A DNA stretch of 45,004 nt from Flavobacteriaceae bacterium (lineage in GTDB: Bacteria; Bacteroidota; Bacteroidia; Flavobacteriales; Weeksellaceae), in assembly GCA_031277475.1 (NCBI GenBank), contig JAITMJ010000039.1:1-45004 (forward strand). The letters are read 5' to 3'. Positions 4,346 to 44,920 of the stretch are shown in pieces. The notes under the pieces are model-generated. The model was given only the letters and a program-made list of their open reading frames with translations, did no database searches and was not told where the DNA came from. The first letter of the stretch is position 1. Each line of letters opens with the position of its first letter. Position numbers and translations under genes: made by a program.

Positions 4346-4705
4346 TTATTTTGTGATTTTTTGTTTAGTTGTTTTTAAAATACTTGCTAAAATTTTTATT
4401 ATTTCTTCAATGTCTTTGTGCAAGGAATTAAATTCTAAATCATTGATATATTTTGTTTTATGAAGAAGTTTCAGCCAATATAATGTTTCAAACGCTTCTT
4501 TGTAGGAAATTTGGAATTTTACTACAAATTCTTTAGCACTGAAAGCCGCTATTCCTTCTTCTATATTTGCTCCTATTGATGTTCCGGATCTCAATAGTTG
4601 TTTTGACATAATGTTCTCTTTCCTTTCACTAATCAGGATTTTATAAAGATTTATAATTCTGACCGAAAAATCGAAAGATTTATTTCTTATGATATTATCT
4701 TTCAT
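4346..4705 (-). CDS. Four-helix-bundle protein (23S rRNA IVS / S23 type)
   Basis: A 119-residue, mostly helical protein of the family first found encoded in 23S rRNA intervening sequences; members also occur as free-standing genes and as accessory proteins of diversity-generating retroelements. Diagnostic stretches are MSKQLLRSGTSIGANIEEG, FVVKFQISYKEAFETLYWLKLL and the helical tail ending in KTTKQKITK. The molecular function is unknown in general. The gene lies between a response regulator and its kinase and is bordered on both sides by inverted arrays of the same heptamer, which suggests later insertion. No reverse transcriptase is nearby, so a retroelement role is unlikely here. Confidence 0.85.
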   Translation of the reverse strand: MKDNIIRNKSFDFSVRIINLYKILISERKENIMSKQLLRSGTSIGANIEEGIAAFSAKEFVVKFQISYKEAFETLYWLKLLHKTKYINDLEFNSLHKDIEEIIKILASILKTTKQKITK

Positions 4706-4778
4706 TTTTAATTCTTAATTTTTAATTCTTAATTTTCAATTCTTAATTCTTAATTCTTAATTCTTAATTCTTAATTAA
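4706..4778. repeat. Heptamer array (AATTCTT)n, right of four-helix gene
   Basis: Roughly nine degenerate copies of AATTCTT, in inverted orientation to the array at 4304-4330. The array starts directly after the four-helix-bundle start codon and covers the TAA stop codon of the histidine kinase, whose last sense codon is the Ser just outside the perfect repeats. Confidence 0.85.
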
Positions 4779-6325
4779 CTACAAGGTAGTTTTATCGTAA
4801 ACGTGCTGCCTTTTCCTTTTTGCGATTCCACGAGAATTTGTCCTTTGTGCAGTTCCACGATTTTTTTCACATACGTCAATCCCAAGCCTTGACCTTTCAC
4901 GTTGTGGATATTTCCGGTTTCCTCGCGGAAAAATTTCTCGAAAATTTTGGTCTTGTTGTGCAGTTCCATTCCAATGCCTTTGTCCGAAATTTCGATGACG
5001 TACCAATTGCCTTCGTTCCATGTTTTTATCTTTATTTCAGGGGCTTCGGATGAATATTTATTGGCGTTGTCCAACAGATTTATCAGCATATTCGAGAGGT
5101 GAAATTCATCTACTTTAAAAATGTATTTTGCGGTGTTAAATTCCTGCGTCAGCGTTCCGTTTCGTTGGGCTACGATTAATCCGAAAGATTCCGAAATCTC
5201 TTTGATGAGTTCGCGGACGTTCGTTTCTTTTAAAAATAATTTCACTTCGTTTCGTTCCAACTTGCTCATATTCAATACATTTTCCACTTGTTTTTTCATC
5301 CGCAGATTTTCCTGTTTGATGAGATTGGAATAGTATTTCACTTTTTCGGGATTGGTCGCAATTTTGTCGTTCACCAAAGAATCCGTAACCACGGAAATGG
5401 TGGCGAGCGGCGTTTTAAATTCGTGCGACATATTGTTGATGAAGTCGGTTTTGATGTCCGAAAGTTTTTTTTGCCGCATCATATAATTGATGGAAATAAT
5501 GTAAATCCCCAAAATCGTGAGCAGCGAAAGCAGCGTTCCGAGCAACATCGGGAAATTATTTTTGGCGAGCGCATAATCTTTTCTCGGAAAAACTACGGAA
5601 AGCGAATACAACGTGTGGTCTTTGCTGTCGGTAAAAAGCGGATAAGAATAGTTAACAAGTGCCGGATAATCCTGAAAAATTTTGTTGGTAACGGTGGTGG
5701 AATTATTATTTTTATCAATGATGGCAAATCCGAATCTTGCTTTTATTCCTTTCATTCTCAATTCTTTAGAAAGCACAGAATCCAAAATTTGGTTGTTCAC
5801 TCTTTTTTCTATCGGGAGGTTAGAAGCGTTCAGTTTTGCAAATTCTCTCAAGTTGTATTCGCCGTTTTCAATGGATTGATCGAGTTCTGCGGTTAAAATT
5901 TCCGGTGTTGAGGAATCTTTTTTGATGCGAATTAAATTTTCATCGGTGTACATTTTCGTGAGGTTCAGGCTGTCTCCTTTTTTGGAAATCGGGATTTGCT
6001 GTTTTTCGATAATGCTTTTCAAATAGGTGATGGAACGTCTGGTAGCCGAATCTTCCACTTGTTGAATCGTAGTTAAAGTCGGCTGATTTTTATCGGAATT
6101 GACGATGCTGTTTGCGAAATTTCGGTTGTCGATGTTCAGGTATTTATCAATTTCGATGTCCGAAATTCTTTTGGTTGAAGTTTCCAAAGCGGCATAAACT
6201 TTATTGGAAAAATCCTGATCCAAAGCGGTGTAATAACTTTTCAGCCAATAATACTGCAACATCACGAAAACCACTAAGGAAATCGTCATAAACACAGAAA
6301 TTATCGGGATAAATCTATTACTCAT
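4775..6325 (-). CDS. Membrane sensor histidine kinase
   Basis: A 516-residue kinase, counting from MSNRFIPIIS; an alternative ATG two codons earlier is possible. There is one N-terminal membrane segment (about 5-28), a long extracytoplasmic sensor region, and a second membrane segment around 260-285 (LLGTLLSLLTILGIYIISI). The HisKA domain follows with the H-box NNMSHEFKTPLATIS (phospho-acceptor about H301). HATPase_c has LLDNANKYSS, ISDKGIGM and GQGLGLTYVKKIVELH. I see no HAMP or PAS domain. It presumably phosphorylates the OmpR-type regulator at 3613-4299. The signal sensed is unknown. Confidence 0.92.
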   Translation of the reverse strand: MSNRFIPIISVFMTISLVVFVMLQYYWLKSYYTALDQDFSNKVYAALETSTKRISDIEIDKYLNIDNRNFANSIVNSDKNQPTLTTIQQVEDSATRRSITYLKSIIEKQQIPISKKGDSLNLTKMYTDENLIRIKKDSSTPEILTAELDQSIENGEYNLREFAKLNASNLPIEKRVNNQILDSVLSKELRMKGIKARFGFAIIDKNNNSTTVTNKIFQDYPALVNYSYPLFTDSKDHTLYSLSVVFPRKDYALAKNNFPMLLGTLLSLLTILGIYIISINYMMRQKKLSDIKTDFINNMSHEFKTPLATISVVTDSLVNDKIATNPEKVKYYSNLIKQENLRMKKQVENVLNMSKLERNEVKLFLKETNVRELIKEISESFGLIVAQRNGTLTQEFNTAKYIFKVDEFHLSNMLINLLDNANKYSSEAPEIKIKTWNEGNWYVIEISDKGIGMELHNKTKIFEKFFREETGNIHNVKGQGLGLTYVKKIVELHKGQILVESQKGKGSTFTIKLPCS

Positions 6326-6737
6326 TTGCATGTTTCAAAAATTCAAAGTTTAAGGTTATCAGCCCCCTGTCCCCCGAAGGGGGAAAAAGTGGCTATGGTT
6401 TACTTTTTATTCTTTTGTCCTTTATCTTTTATCTCAACGTCTATAAAAAACAATTTGTTAAAATTACGAATTTTAAGACAGTAAAAACAAAAATTAATAT
6501 GTTTTCTTAAAATATTTATCTTAAAAACGCGGGTTTTAACAGTTTGTTGTGAAAATGTGTTGAGATTCGAGATTGTGAAAAATCAGGTTTAAACGACAAA
6601 AATAATGATAAAATTCTTTTGATTGCCCATCAATAAATAATTTTGCAATACTCGAAAGTGGCAAAAGTATTCAATAATCAAACTTGTCGTTTATGATTTT
6701 CCGACAATAAATTCCAAAGGAAAAATAACCGAAATTT
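6326..6737. other. Intergenic region with GAA-loop hairpin
   Basis: About 410 bp upstream of the kinase gene and downstream of pheS. It contains an AAGTTTAAGG-type simple repeat near 6340 and a perfect CCCCC-GAA-GGGGG hairpin at 6371-6383. The rest is AT-rich sequence without a convincing reading frame. The kinase promoter must lie here, but I could not locate it with confidence. Confidence 0.6.
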
Positions 6738-41404: not shown

Positions 41405-41700
41405 TGTAAGTCATTTTTCGTTTAAAGTTTAAGGTTGAGAGATTTTAGTTTTTAATTCATTAGTAAAATTATTTTTGAGAGTCCATAAGCAATAATCTAT
41501 ATTTAAAAACTTCGGTAAAATTATCTTTTTAAATCAATATATGCTTTGCAAGGTTTTTATTTCAATCCTTTTAAATATTATTCATAATGGTTTTTATTTT
41601 CTGTTTTAAAAACATGACGTTATTATTTTAATTGATAATAACTTCCTTTCCGAAATCATTCCGCAATCATTCCGAATTATTTTTGAAAAGCGTTACAGAA
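41405..41700. other. Spacer with displaced copy of a downstream-gene repeat
   Basis: About 300 bp. The first part has TTTAAAGTTTAAGG-type simple sequence (41421-41434) and AT-rich DNA. The last part (41641-41695) is a second copy of an internal segment of the AlbA_2 gene. Otherwise I see nothing. Confidence 0.6.
41641..41695. repeat. 55-bp duplicate of AlbA_2 gene segment, outside the gene
   Basis: It shares ACTTCCTTTCCGAAATC on the left and TTCCGAATTATTTTTGAAAA plus GCGTTA on the right with 41882-41969 in the same orientation. It holds three 11-bp TTCCGAAATCN units instead of six, so the length difference (33 bp) is exactly three units. It starts only 6 bp beyond the stop codon of the gene. 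Confidence 0.88.
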
Positions 41701-43047
41701 TTATTCATCGAGATTGATTTCCCAACGACCGCCCAATTTTGCACCTTTTCTATAAATTATACCTGCATTTTTCAATTTTGCAATATGATTTTCTATTGTC
41801 CGCGAGGATTTTTTTGCAAGTTTTGCAAGTTGTTCCGCGGAGTATTCCGGATTTTTGCAAATGAAATCCAATGTTTCCACAACTTCCTTTCCGAAATCGT
41901 TCCGAAATCGTTCCGAAATCATTCCGAAATCATTCCGAAGTTCTTCCGAATTATTTTTGAAAAGCGTTATCAAAAATCCGCCGTCTCTTTCAATCAATTC
42001 AGGTTCCGGAAGTCCGGCTTCCACACAAGTTTCTATGATTCGAACGGTTCCGCTTCCCCAAGCATCAATTAATCCGCCTTTGAAACAAACATCGGCAATC
42101 AACGAATTGCGAGGTATTGACGGATGTAAATATCTCAAAGATTCCAAACTTATTTCTTCGGGAAGTACGCCGCTGTTCCATATATTGATTTTATCATCAT
42201 AAACACGAATTTGGATGAAACTTCCCATATAATTGCGATGTATCAACGCATTGAGCAACATTTCACGAAGTGCGAGAGTGGGATATTCACCTTTTTCAAC
42301 ACGAAAAAATCCCTCAAATTGAATGTTGCGAATGAGAAATTTTTGGTTTAATTGTTCTAAAACTTCACGCAACAACACTATGATATTTCCTTCTTGTACT
42401 TCTTGAAAACGTAAATCGGCATCGCTTTTTCCAAACCTGCCAATCTTCGCAAAAGCATTTAGATAAAACTTTCTTGGATCTTTACCAAACAAAATAATAG
42501 CGGCTCGTTTGAGTTTTCCATTTTTGGTAAGCCGCAGTTTATTAAAAATTTCTTCGGTTGTTAAGCCTTCCACATCGGGCAATCTGCCTTTGTCTTTTGC
42601 CATTACCAAATATGCTTTTACCGATTTTTCATCAATATCATCAAAAGTAGCGTCGGTTTCTATGATTTCATCCCAAGTGAAGCCGGATTTTTTCAACAAA
42701 AATTCGTTCAGTGCTGTTCCCGTCAGTTCTTGATTCACACTTCCGCTTCGATAATAATATCTGCCTCGCAAAGAAATCGGCACGGAATAAGGAGGCGTAA
42801 CAATCTCGATAAAATGCTTTTTGAGTTCCTCGTGTAAATTCACTTCAACGGAAACTCCCATCAGGTTTTTGGTTTTGTTGGGAATTTCGTCCATCAGTTT
42901 TTTGTAATCTTTTACATCAACAGTATTTCCGCCGTCGTCTTTACCAATATAAATTTTACCGCCTTGCGCATTGGCAAAACCACAGATTTCTCGCAAAAAC
43001 TCGTCTCGCCAAGAGGATTTGTATTCTATGTTTTGTGTTTCGGGCAT
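41701..43047 (-). CDS. AlbA_2 (Schlafen-type) ATP-binding protein with winged-helix tail
   Basis: A 448-residue protein. The AlbA_2 domain occupies about 1-120 (QNIEYKSSWRDEFLREICGF, NAQGGKIYIGKDDGG, YYYRSGSVNQELTG). A central region and a GHKL-type ATP-binding-like part (about 240-365) contain REMLLNALIHRNYMGSFIQI and FKGGLIDAWGSGTVRIIETC. A winged-helix domain covers about 388-448 (YSAEQLAKLAKKSSRTIENHIAKL). Such proteins are common near mobile or defence genes and are often called putative transcriptional regulators. It is the second gene after a Fic gene, 13 bp away. A frame-shifting-prone 11-bp repeat encodes residues about 366-387. Confidence 0.9.
   Translation of the reverse strand: MPETQNIEYKSSWRDEFLREICGFANAQGGKIYIGKDDGGNTVDVKDYKKLMDEIPNKTKNLMGVSVEVNLHEELKKHFIEIVTPPYSVPISLRGRYYYRSGSVNQELTGTALNEFLLKKSGFTWDEIIETDATFDDIDEKSVKAYLVMAKDKGRLPDVEGLTTEEIFNKLRLTKNGKLKRAAIILFGKDPRKFYLNAFAKIGRFGKSDADLRFQEVQEGNIIVLLREVLEQLNQKFLIRNIQFEGFFRVEKGEYPTLALREMLLNALIHRNYMGSFIQIRVYDDKINIWNSGVLPEEISLESLRYLHPSIPRNSLIADVCFKGGLIDAWGSGTVRIIETCVEAGLPEPELIERDGGFLITLFKNNSEELRNDFGMISERFRNDFGKEVVETLDFICKNPEYSAEQLAKLAKKSSRTIENHIAKLKNAGIIYRKGAKLGGRWEINLDE
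41889..41950 (-). repeat. 11-bp tandem repeats inside AlbA_2 gene
   Basis: Five full units of TTCCGAAATCG/A plus a partial sixth. Because 11 is not a multiple of three, the units are read in rotating frames and give RNDFGMISERFRNDFG. Loss or gain of one unit would shift the frame; three units would not. Confidence 0.9.
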
Positions 43048-44740: not shown

Positions 44741-44920
44741 ACGAGATGTAAAACGATTTAACACGAGGTCATAAAAATTATTAACAAGAGTTATAAAATT
44801 ATTTAACACGGGATGTAAAACTATTTAACACGAGGTATAAAAATACTTTACAAGTCAGGTGTAAAATTATTTAATAGGCAGATGTAAAATTCTTTACGAG
44901 AGGTGTAAAAACATTTTATC
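44741..44920. repeat. Array of about eight degenerate 22-bp direct repeats
   Basis: Units of 22-24 bp with consensus ACGAGGTGTAAAATTATTTA plus AC start at 44741, 44763, 44786, 44808, 44830, 44852, 44876 and 44898. A further isolated unit-like sequence (ACGGAGGTCTGAAAAATAAT) lies at 44957. Every unit contains TAA, so it is not coding. There are no spacers, so it is not CRISPR. The spacing equals two helical turns, as expected for an array of protein-binding sites or iterons. Confidence 0.8.

Follow-up and report, generated by a model that had tools for sequence, protein, structure and literature searches.

Two tracts of 11-bp repeats, one inside a gene and one just beyond its stop codon, raise the question of what such short DNA repeats may do for the protein encoded beside them. 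They lie in the window, by which we mean the whole 45,004-nucleotide stretch of Flavobacteriaceae DNA that was analysed. A preliminary description of the locus saw in them a candidate for on/off or domain switching. We favour another reading, with a probability of about 0.6: the tract would be an array of binding sites, with the word TTCGGAA, for the adjoining winged helix, and domain and array would form one C-terminal cassette that is swapped as a whole. The features concerned are listed in Table 1.

Table 1. Features of the repeat-bearing locus and of the neighbouring Fic gene. Nucleotide positions are those of the window; residue numbers (aa) are those of the 448-aa protein.
Feature	Position	Strand	Basis or remark
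AlbA_2/HATPase_c_4/winged-helix gene, 448 aa	41701..43047	(-)	ORF, Pfam, AlphaFold, Foldseek
SLFN_AlbA_2 domain	aa 3-108		Pfam
HATPase_c_4 domain	aa 275-362		Pfam
C-terminal winged helix, type B	~aa 386-448		Sits beyond the linker
Recognition helix core SSRTIEN, aa 414-420	41788..41808	(-)	Motif and alignment; input to the covariation tests
Coding sequence of the winged-helix tail, read as an exchangeable cassette together with the array	41704..41892	(-)	Pfam, relatives, AlphaFold
In-gene array: TTCGGA six times, one word every 11 bp, 88 bp, translated as the linker TLFKNNSEELRNDFGMISERFRNDFGKE	41882..41969	(-)	
Displaced array: three units and the same borders, 55 bp, 5 nt past the stop codon	41641..41695	(-)	
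Fic gene, ending in a repeat linker and a winged helix	43061..44068	(-)	ORF, Pfam; PADLOC SoFic, E 3e-50
Fic linker repeats of 12 bp (coding word AAATGCA x3), immediately ahead of the winged helix	43248..43286	(-)	

The gene belongs to the SLFN_AlbA_2/HATPase_c_4/winged-helix proteins, which are COG2865-like and often annotated as RecG-like. Its product carries AlbA_2 followed by HATPase_c_4, both above their Pfam cut-offs (PF04326, 46.3 bits for a cut-off of 25.3; PF13749, 73.6 bits for a cut-off of 26). The C-terminus is a winged helix: AlphaFold models it as helices and then two strands, it matches the type-B HMM, and the Pfam families HTH_24 and HTH_5 score slightly under their cut-offs. 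The mean pLDDT of the model was 83.5, with the linker (residues 367-385) as a low-confidence helix. The core resembles 3LMM (DIP2311 of Corynebacterium diphtheriae) and, through its AlbA_2 part, Schlafen proteins. 3LMM was the top Foldseek match of the whole model (E 7e-23) and is the sole solved relative by sequence, but it is only 20% identical to the window protein. To our knowledge, neither a function nor an array is known for DIP2311.

Coordinates and unit numbers of both tracts had been given correctly in the preliminary description. The in-gene tract lies exactly between HATPase_c_4 and the winged helix and reads NNSEELRNDFGMISERFRNDFGKE on the coding strand, while one of the three displaced units has TGCGGA. 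The borders, described as identical, are indeed common to both tracts over 26 bp on one side and about 14 bp on the other. Since BLAST within 1.3 kb matched the two tracts with E=2e-14, their resemblance is not due to chance. The displaced copy also contains a 22-bp flank that codes in the gene for TLFKNN, a part of the core, and because this flank is included, the copy probably arose by duplication of the linker array. It was ruled out as a shorter linker that still functions, since translation of its first unit in the frame of the gene gives NNSE and then a stop. A genome-wide repeat family was rejected as well, the tract being present only at this locus, apart from one site elsewhere in the genome that has a single mismatch and looks like chance. 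A phage or plasmid origin was also rejected: the viral contigs with the bare TTCGGA spacing pattern encode unrelated proteins, and a comparison of the cassette with plasmids gave no match.

Simulated recombination between the two copies deleted 241-274 bp, depending on the crossover point, and produced proteins of 368 aa (ending in NNSE), 379, 381 or 392 aa, all without the winged helix. A deletion of about 240 bp that leaves a protein ending near NNSE, as first proposed, is thus one outcome among several, and the predicted loss of the winged helix is common to all. Disturbance of the frame by single-unit slippage was also borne out, with a stop after 379 aa when one unit was gained and a frameshifted protein of 428 aa when one was lost; the loss of three units left the gene in frame (437 aa). 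Moreover, one unit does have CGATT where TGATT would give a stop, and Arg is mostly kept there in relatives. The locus might therefore be phase-variable, with gain or loss of units, or recombination between the copies, switching the winged-helix tail on and off, since any unit change that is not a multiple of three alters or truncates the C-terminus. Out-of-frame tracts do occur naturally (L065 has one unit fewer than L063 and L079, and L068 is one unit off), and C-terminal switching driven by simple sequence repeats is known in Helicobacter canadensis (PMC2823697).

However, the reading frames of relatives speak against such a switch. Among tract-bearing relatives, picked by DNA pattern and blind to the reading frame, the tract was in frame in 13 of 13 genes with an uninterrupted core (L059, L062, L063, L066, L071, L073, L074, L075, L077, L081, L083, L084 and the window), so that natural out-of-frame variants of an otherwise intact gene amounted to 0/13. 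With a free-running or unselected 11-bp switch, as many as two in three genes would be expected out of frame. The out-of-frame tracts belong to deleted or partial cores (L060, L065, L068), precede orphan tails (L058, L070) or lack a core (L076). In L079 the core contains a stop, yet the tract is in frame; it is also in frame in L082, where the contig end cuts the gene. Most relatives carry 12-bp linker repeats, which cannot shift the frame, and the imperfect units of the window should slow slippage. As in H. canadensis, the tract lies late in the coding sequence, where a change of length would alter the C-terminus, but the tracts of that species are homopolymers (PMC2823697), unlike the imperfect 11-bp units found here, with all uninterrupted relatives in frame. 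A strain-level comparison of copy number in P. distasonis had one record only, and a search of E. coli with one distant query found no homologue. Altogether, an on/off switch is weakly supported, and we consider it improbable.

Domain switching, the other proposal of the preliminary description, is supported in an evolutionary sense. The closest cores, 64-79% identical to that of the window, all bear an unrelated winged helix of type A, which is 11-18% identical to the window tail and is joined by a fixed linker of about 33 nt without repeats. Conversely, the type-B winged helices nearest to that of the window (51-64%) belong to cores that are just 26-61% identical. As judged from these comparisons, the winged-helix tail is an exchangeable cassette, swapped at the linker junction, and the C-terminus changes at a fixed boundary as in Rhs/CDI proteins. 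When about 85,000 genomes were scanned for the tract pattern, 27 loci emerged, of which about 20 lie directly before a type-B winged helix, and the TTCGGA word and the position of the in-gene array recur in about 20 relatives with this winged-helix type. Loci combining tract and type-B winged helix were found in Bacteroidota, Spirochaetota, Cloacimonadota, Nitrospira, Desulfobulbaceae, Omnitrophota and Gammaproteobacteria. Several relatives are housed in type I restriction loci.

Additional tails were also detected downstream. Locus L220 is a single ORF made of a core, 12-bp repeats, a winged helix, a TTCGGAA array and a second winged helix. In L058, L070 and L099, a complete tail and a stop are followed by an orphan tail, and L071 has a second tail fragment; what follows the window gene is an array only, without a winged helix. 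A second winged helix was present at no more than 700 nt in 4 of 62 loci, for 0.12 expected from the local background. The displaced tract could then be a functionless scar, left by tail replacement or by tandem duplication at a repeat-rich linker, and the linker repeats could be ordinary slippage-prone DNA. The exchange of tails at the linker junction, the excess of second winged helices and the stacked, fragmentary or orphan tails of L220, L099, L071, L058 and L070 all agree with this explanation. Moreover, the core-coding 22 bp of the displaced copy fit a plain functionless duplication of a linker segment and thus count against a site array.

As read from the relatives, repeat arrays next to the winged-helix tails are a rule of the AlbA_2/HATPase_c_4 family. 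Type-B members found by core homology alone usually have period-12 linker repeats (e.g. GDKL, GGQD, EKDL, NVVD, ENFT, VETV), and type-B arrays overall have units of 11 or 12 bp, located in the linker and now and then beyond the stop. In type-A members, the linker is free of repeats, and words of ~8 bp form an array that spans the stop codon or comes after it, with a spacing of 11-9-11, which is constant while the word differs, as expected for sites on one face of the helix. A 7-mer in at least three copies was detected in 59% of 44 type-A stop windows versus 1.7% of 422 control windows from the same loci. Repeated 6-mers were found at spacing 11 in 29, at spacing 9 in 24 and at spacing 20 in 23 of the 37 array-type loci (type A minus a group of seven short, different proteins with helices like SQDTALR and no array), compared to about 4%, 5% and 1% of controls, respectively. 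A search with a type-A profile added further loci, including orphan tail modules that retain the array (L234, L239, L257). A functionless scar leaves unexplained the stop-codon arrays of most type-A members and their 11-9 spacing whatever the word.

The position of the displaced copy in the window matches that of the 3' arrays of relatives. By a strict count, type-B members outside the pattern set had a linker array only in 21 cases, a 3' array only in 3, both in none and neither in 7. The window has both, with six words in the linker and two or three past the stop, as does L064 (linker array AAACTTCGGTGA, 3' array AAAGTTCGGAGA), a tail at a contig end without its core. Beside STRAIE helices, a TTCGG array lies in the linker (L108) or, as in the window, on both sides of the tail (L064). 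A first test on 93 loci, which scored only linker repeats copied downstream of a core and so missed L064 and the type-A arrays (these have no linker copy), found a displaced array in the window only; as a frequent feature, a displaced array is unsupported by a test of this design. Two other roles of the 3' array were rejected: a terminator or structured RNA (fold z = -0.96, no Rfam match), and a promoter of the next gene, which is often convergent.

Related repeats were observed in other settings. In L064, two copies of the TTCGG array lie about 3 kb apart with following sequence in common, and one of them runs into the 3' end of an apparent tRNA gene, which suggests tandem integrated elements. 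In another Bacteroidota genome, L118 (G650:C1:23052-23178) is a twelve-unit array of the 11-bp repeat TTCGGAAGYGA, located outside long forward reading frames. On viral contigs, the linkers of unrelated proteins (L131, L136, L155, L163) consist of TTCGGANNNNN 11-bp repeats (RTKSE/RTNSE type), which may follow the same principle.

The array word was then compared with the recognition helix, which was assigned by motif and alignment and not from a DNA-bound structure. In type A, SKATATR is found with TTGGCTCA or GGGCTCA (L047, L103/L236, L106/L227, L109/L230, L257, remotely L112, and on the reverse strand L050), SRNTASN/SRNTATN with AATTGCACA (L087, L094, L105, L256), SERTASR/TERTASR with AACGCCA (L045, L046, L051, L086), SDRTALR/SDRTSSR with TGGCGGA (L048, L093, L102), SNRTAT with ATCACGC (L043, L234), SKRTAT with GTGGGGCAA (the L099 orphan, L239) and KTAYR with TGTCCGAT (L240, and on the reverse strand L249). 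The flipped orientation in L050 and L249 points to double-stranded DNA. The proportion of type-A pairs with a common repeated 7-mer was 2-3% when helix identity was low and reached 65% at an identity of at least 90%. For pairs with a rest-of-tail identity of 0.45-0.70, the word was common in 30-37% when helices were similar versus 5-7% otherwise. Given the rest of the tail, word and helix were correlated in type A (partial Mantel r=0.25, 0/5000 permutations) and, in a strict test omitting the window and the pattern loci (chosen by DNA word), in type B (r=0.26, 0/5000 permutations), in an analysis that controls only for rest-of-tail identity and is liberal in permuting related sequences. Covariation beyond relatedness was thus found in both types, with the linkage of array and tail as a caveat: part of it is shared descent, because array and tail are adjacent and co-inherited.

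Common words were also found between distant type-B tails. L095 (TERTIQR) and L037 (SQRTIQR) have TCGTAGA in common although the rest of their tails is 32% identical; L049 (STTTIEN) and L186 (STTAIEK) have AAGTTGGG in common (rest 38%); and the Fic protein of L224 (SNRTIER) and the AlbA_2 protein L183 (STKTIER) have AAATGTCGG and CGGAGAA in common (rest 34%). Locus L220, found with a protein profile built from the type-B pattern loci and the window, has a helix SSRTIEN identical to that of the window, adjoining five TTCGGAA words. Their spacing is 10/12 instead of 11, so that the peptide differs while the DNA word is kept. With the same helix and the same words in L220, the most fitting reading of the window tract is that of a cognate site array for the winged helix beside it. 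The covariation of word and recognition helix is a further point that a functionless scar does not explain, and we regard a scar as rather unlikely.

The repeats might instead be kept for the peptide, as a helical linker (RNDFGxISERxRNDFG) important to the protein by its length or sequence, the DNA repetition being a by-product. Sequence and length of the linker are conserved in 11 aligned relatives, and AlphaFold draws it as a helix. The conservation of RxDFGxxSERxRxxFG among tract-bearing relatives, themselves chosen by DNA pattern, also counts against a site array. However, L220 retains TTCGGAA words and alters spacing and peptide beside an identical helix, other linker peptides are chemically unlike that of the window (GGQD, EKDL, NVVD, ENFT, GGVI), and the type-A arrays are mostly untranslated. 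A role of the peptide alone therefore appears very improbable.

In the site-array reading, the array would consist of putative DNA sites, TTCGGAA, one per helical turn, for the winged helix encoded next door. Eleven base pairs make up one turn of the helix, and the frame is regained every three units. Type-B arrays, inside the gene just before the winged helix, would double as a translated linker, and type-A arrays would lie at or just after the stop codon; in both cases winged helix and array would move together between cores as a C-terminal cassette. In the window, the array would have been duplicated, giving one copy in the linker and one past the stop. Neighbouring protein molecules may dock cooperatively on the array by means of their tails, so that several line up at the 3' end of the gene encoding them. 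The bound array would most likely control expression of this gene or of its neighbours, possibly by read-through control, local silencing or marking of the gene. Elsewhere in the searched loci, array words were rare and no promoter site was evident; because of this scarcity, classical promoter autoregulation is not evident. A role in the control of defence genes is plausible, because several relatives sit in type I restriction loci. More tentatively, and with less than even odds, a large phylum-crossing family of AlbA_2/HATPase_c_4 proteins, probably also Fic proteins, may use interchangeable cassettes of winged helix and cognate array. The protein would mark or sense its own gene, a tail swap would change specificity and sites together, and helix and array would be readable as a specificity code.

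We know of no case in which the gene of the binder itself contains such an array, or ends with it, and in which array and binding domain travel together. HTH and wHTH proteins that oligomerise on DNA include BldC (PMC5859096), which does so on direct repeats, and the wHTH factor RdfS (PMC11963761). The orphan C-terminal modules of Rhs and CdiA offer another parallel, with a conserved N-terminal part, exchangeable C-terminal domains and displaced downstream C-terminal fragments without start signals, and there the main gene and the orphan can recombine through shared sequence (Koskiniemi et al. 2014, PMC3967940). The present family likewise has a conserved N-terminal part, exchangeable C-termini, displaced downstream fragments in some relatives and shared sequence for recombination, but the exchanged part is a winged helix with a repeat array, not a toxin with its immunity gene, and no recombinant was observed. 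TrlG of Photorhabdus has the same AlbA_2 and HATPase_c_4 core and was likewise misannotated as recG; its report deals with temperature restriction, in passages that describe neither a swapped tail nor a site array (PMC7554251).

A search of the open-access literature found no description of arrays of this kind; the preliminary description had not noticed that arrays beside the tail are the norm of the family and track the recognition helix. If the arrays are binding sites, every genome presents a protein and its DNA target next to each other, which would amount to a natural, experiment-free training set on winged-helix specificity. The repeat linkers of the family (GDKL, TPQV, TSEK etc.) would then be explained as DNA elements and not as peptide features, and there would be a first handle on what the widespread, restriction-linked AlbA_2/HATPase_c_4 proteins do at their own genes.

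The neighbouring Fic gene has the same layout as the AlbA_2 gene, with a linker of 12-bp repeats (AAATGCA) followed by a winged helix (NASTVYR). Two more Fic-like proteins, each with a repeat-like linker and a type-B winged helix, are encoded on contigs C9 and C123 of the same genome (L221, L222), and L221 shows a repeated ATAACCT word past its stop. On contig C133, also of this genome, an AlbA_2 remnant with a type-A tail (L248/L225, SDRTARR) has a TTTGTCCGAAG array after its stop, beyond which another AlbA_2 frame starts and ends at once. The L224 restriction locus contains adjacent genes, several of them with repeat arrays: hsdS, an AlbA_2 gene carrying KTVD repeats, a Fic gene carrying TSEK/MSEK repeats and, after NVGE repeats, an hsdR-like frame. 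Upstream of the Fic gene of the window, near the window end, a tandem array of 22/44-bp units occupies positions 44741-44910. Finally, ten copies of the 7-bp word ATTCTTA (4704-4776) abut a histidine kinase gene (4775-6331, minus strand) at its 3' end.
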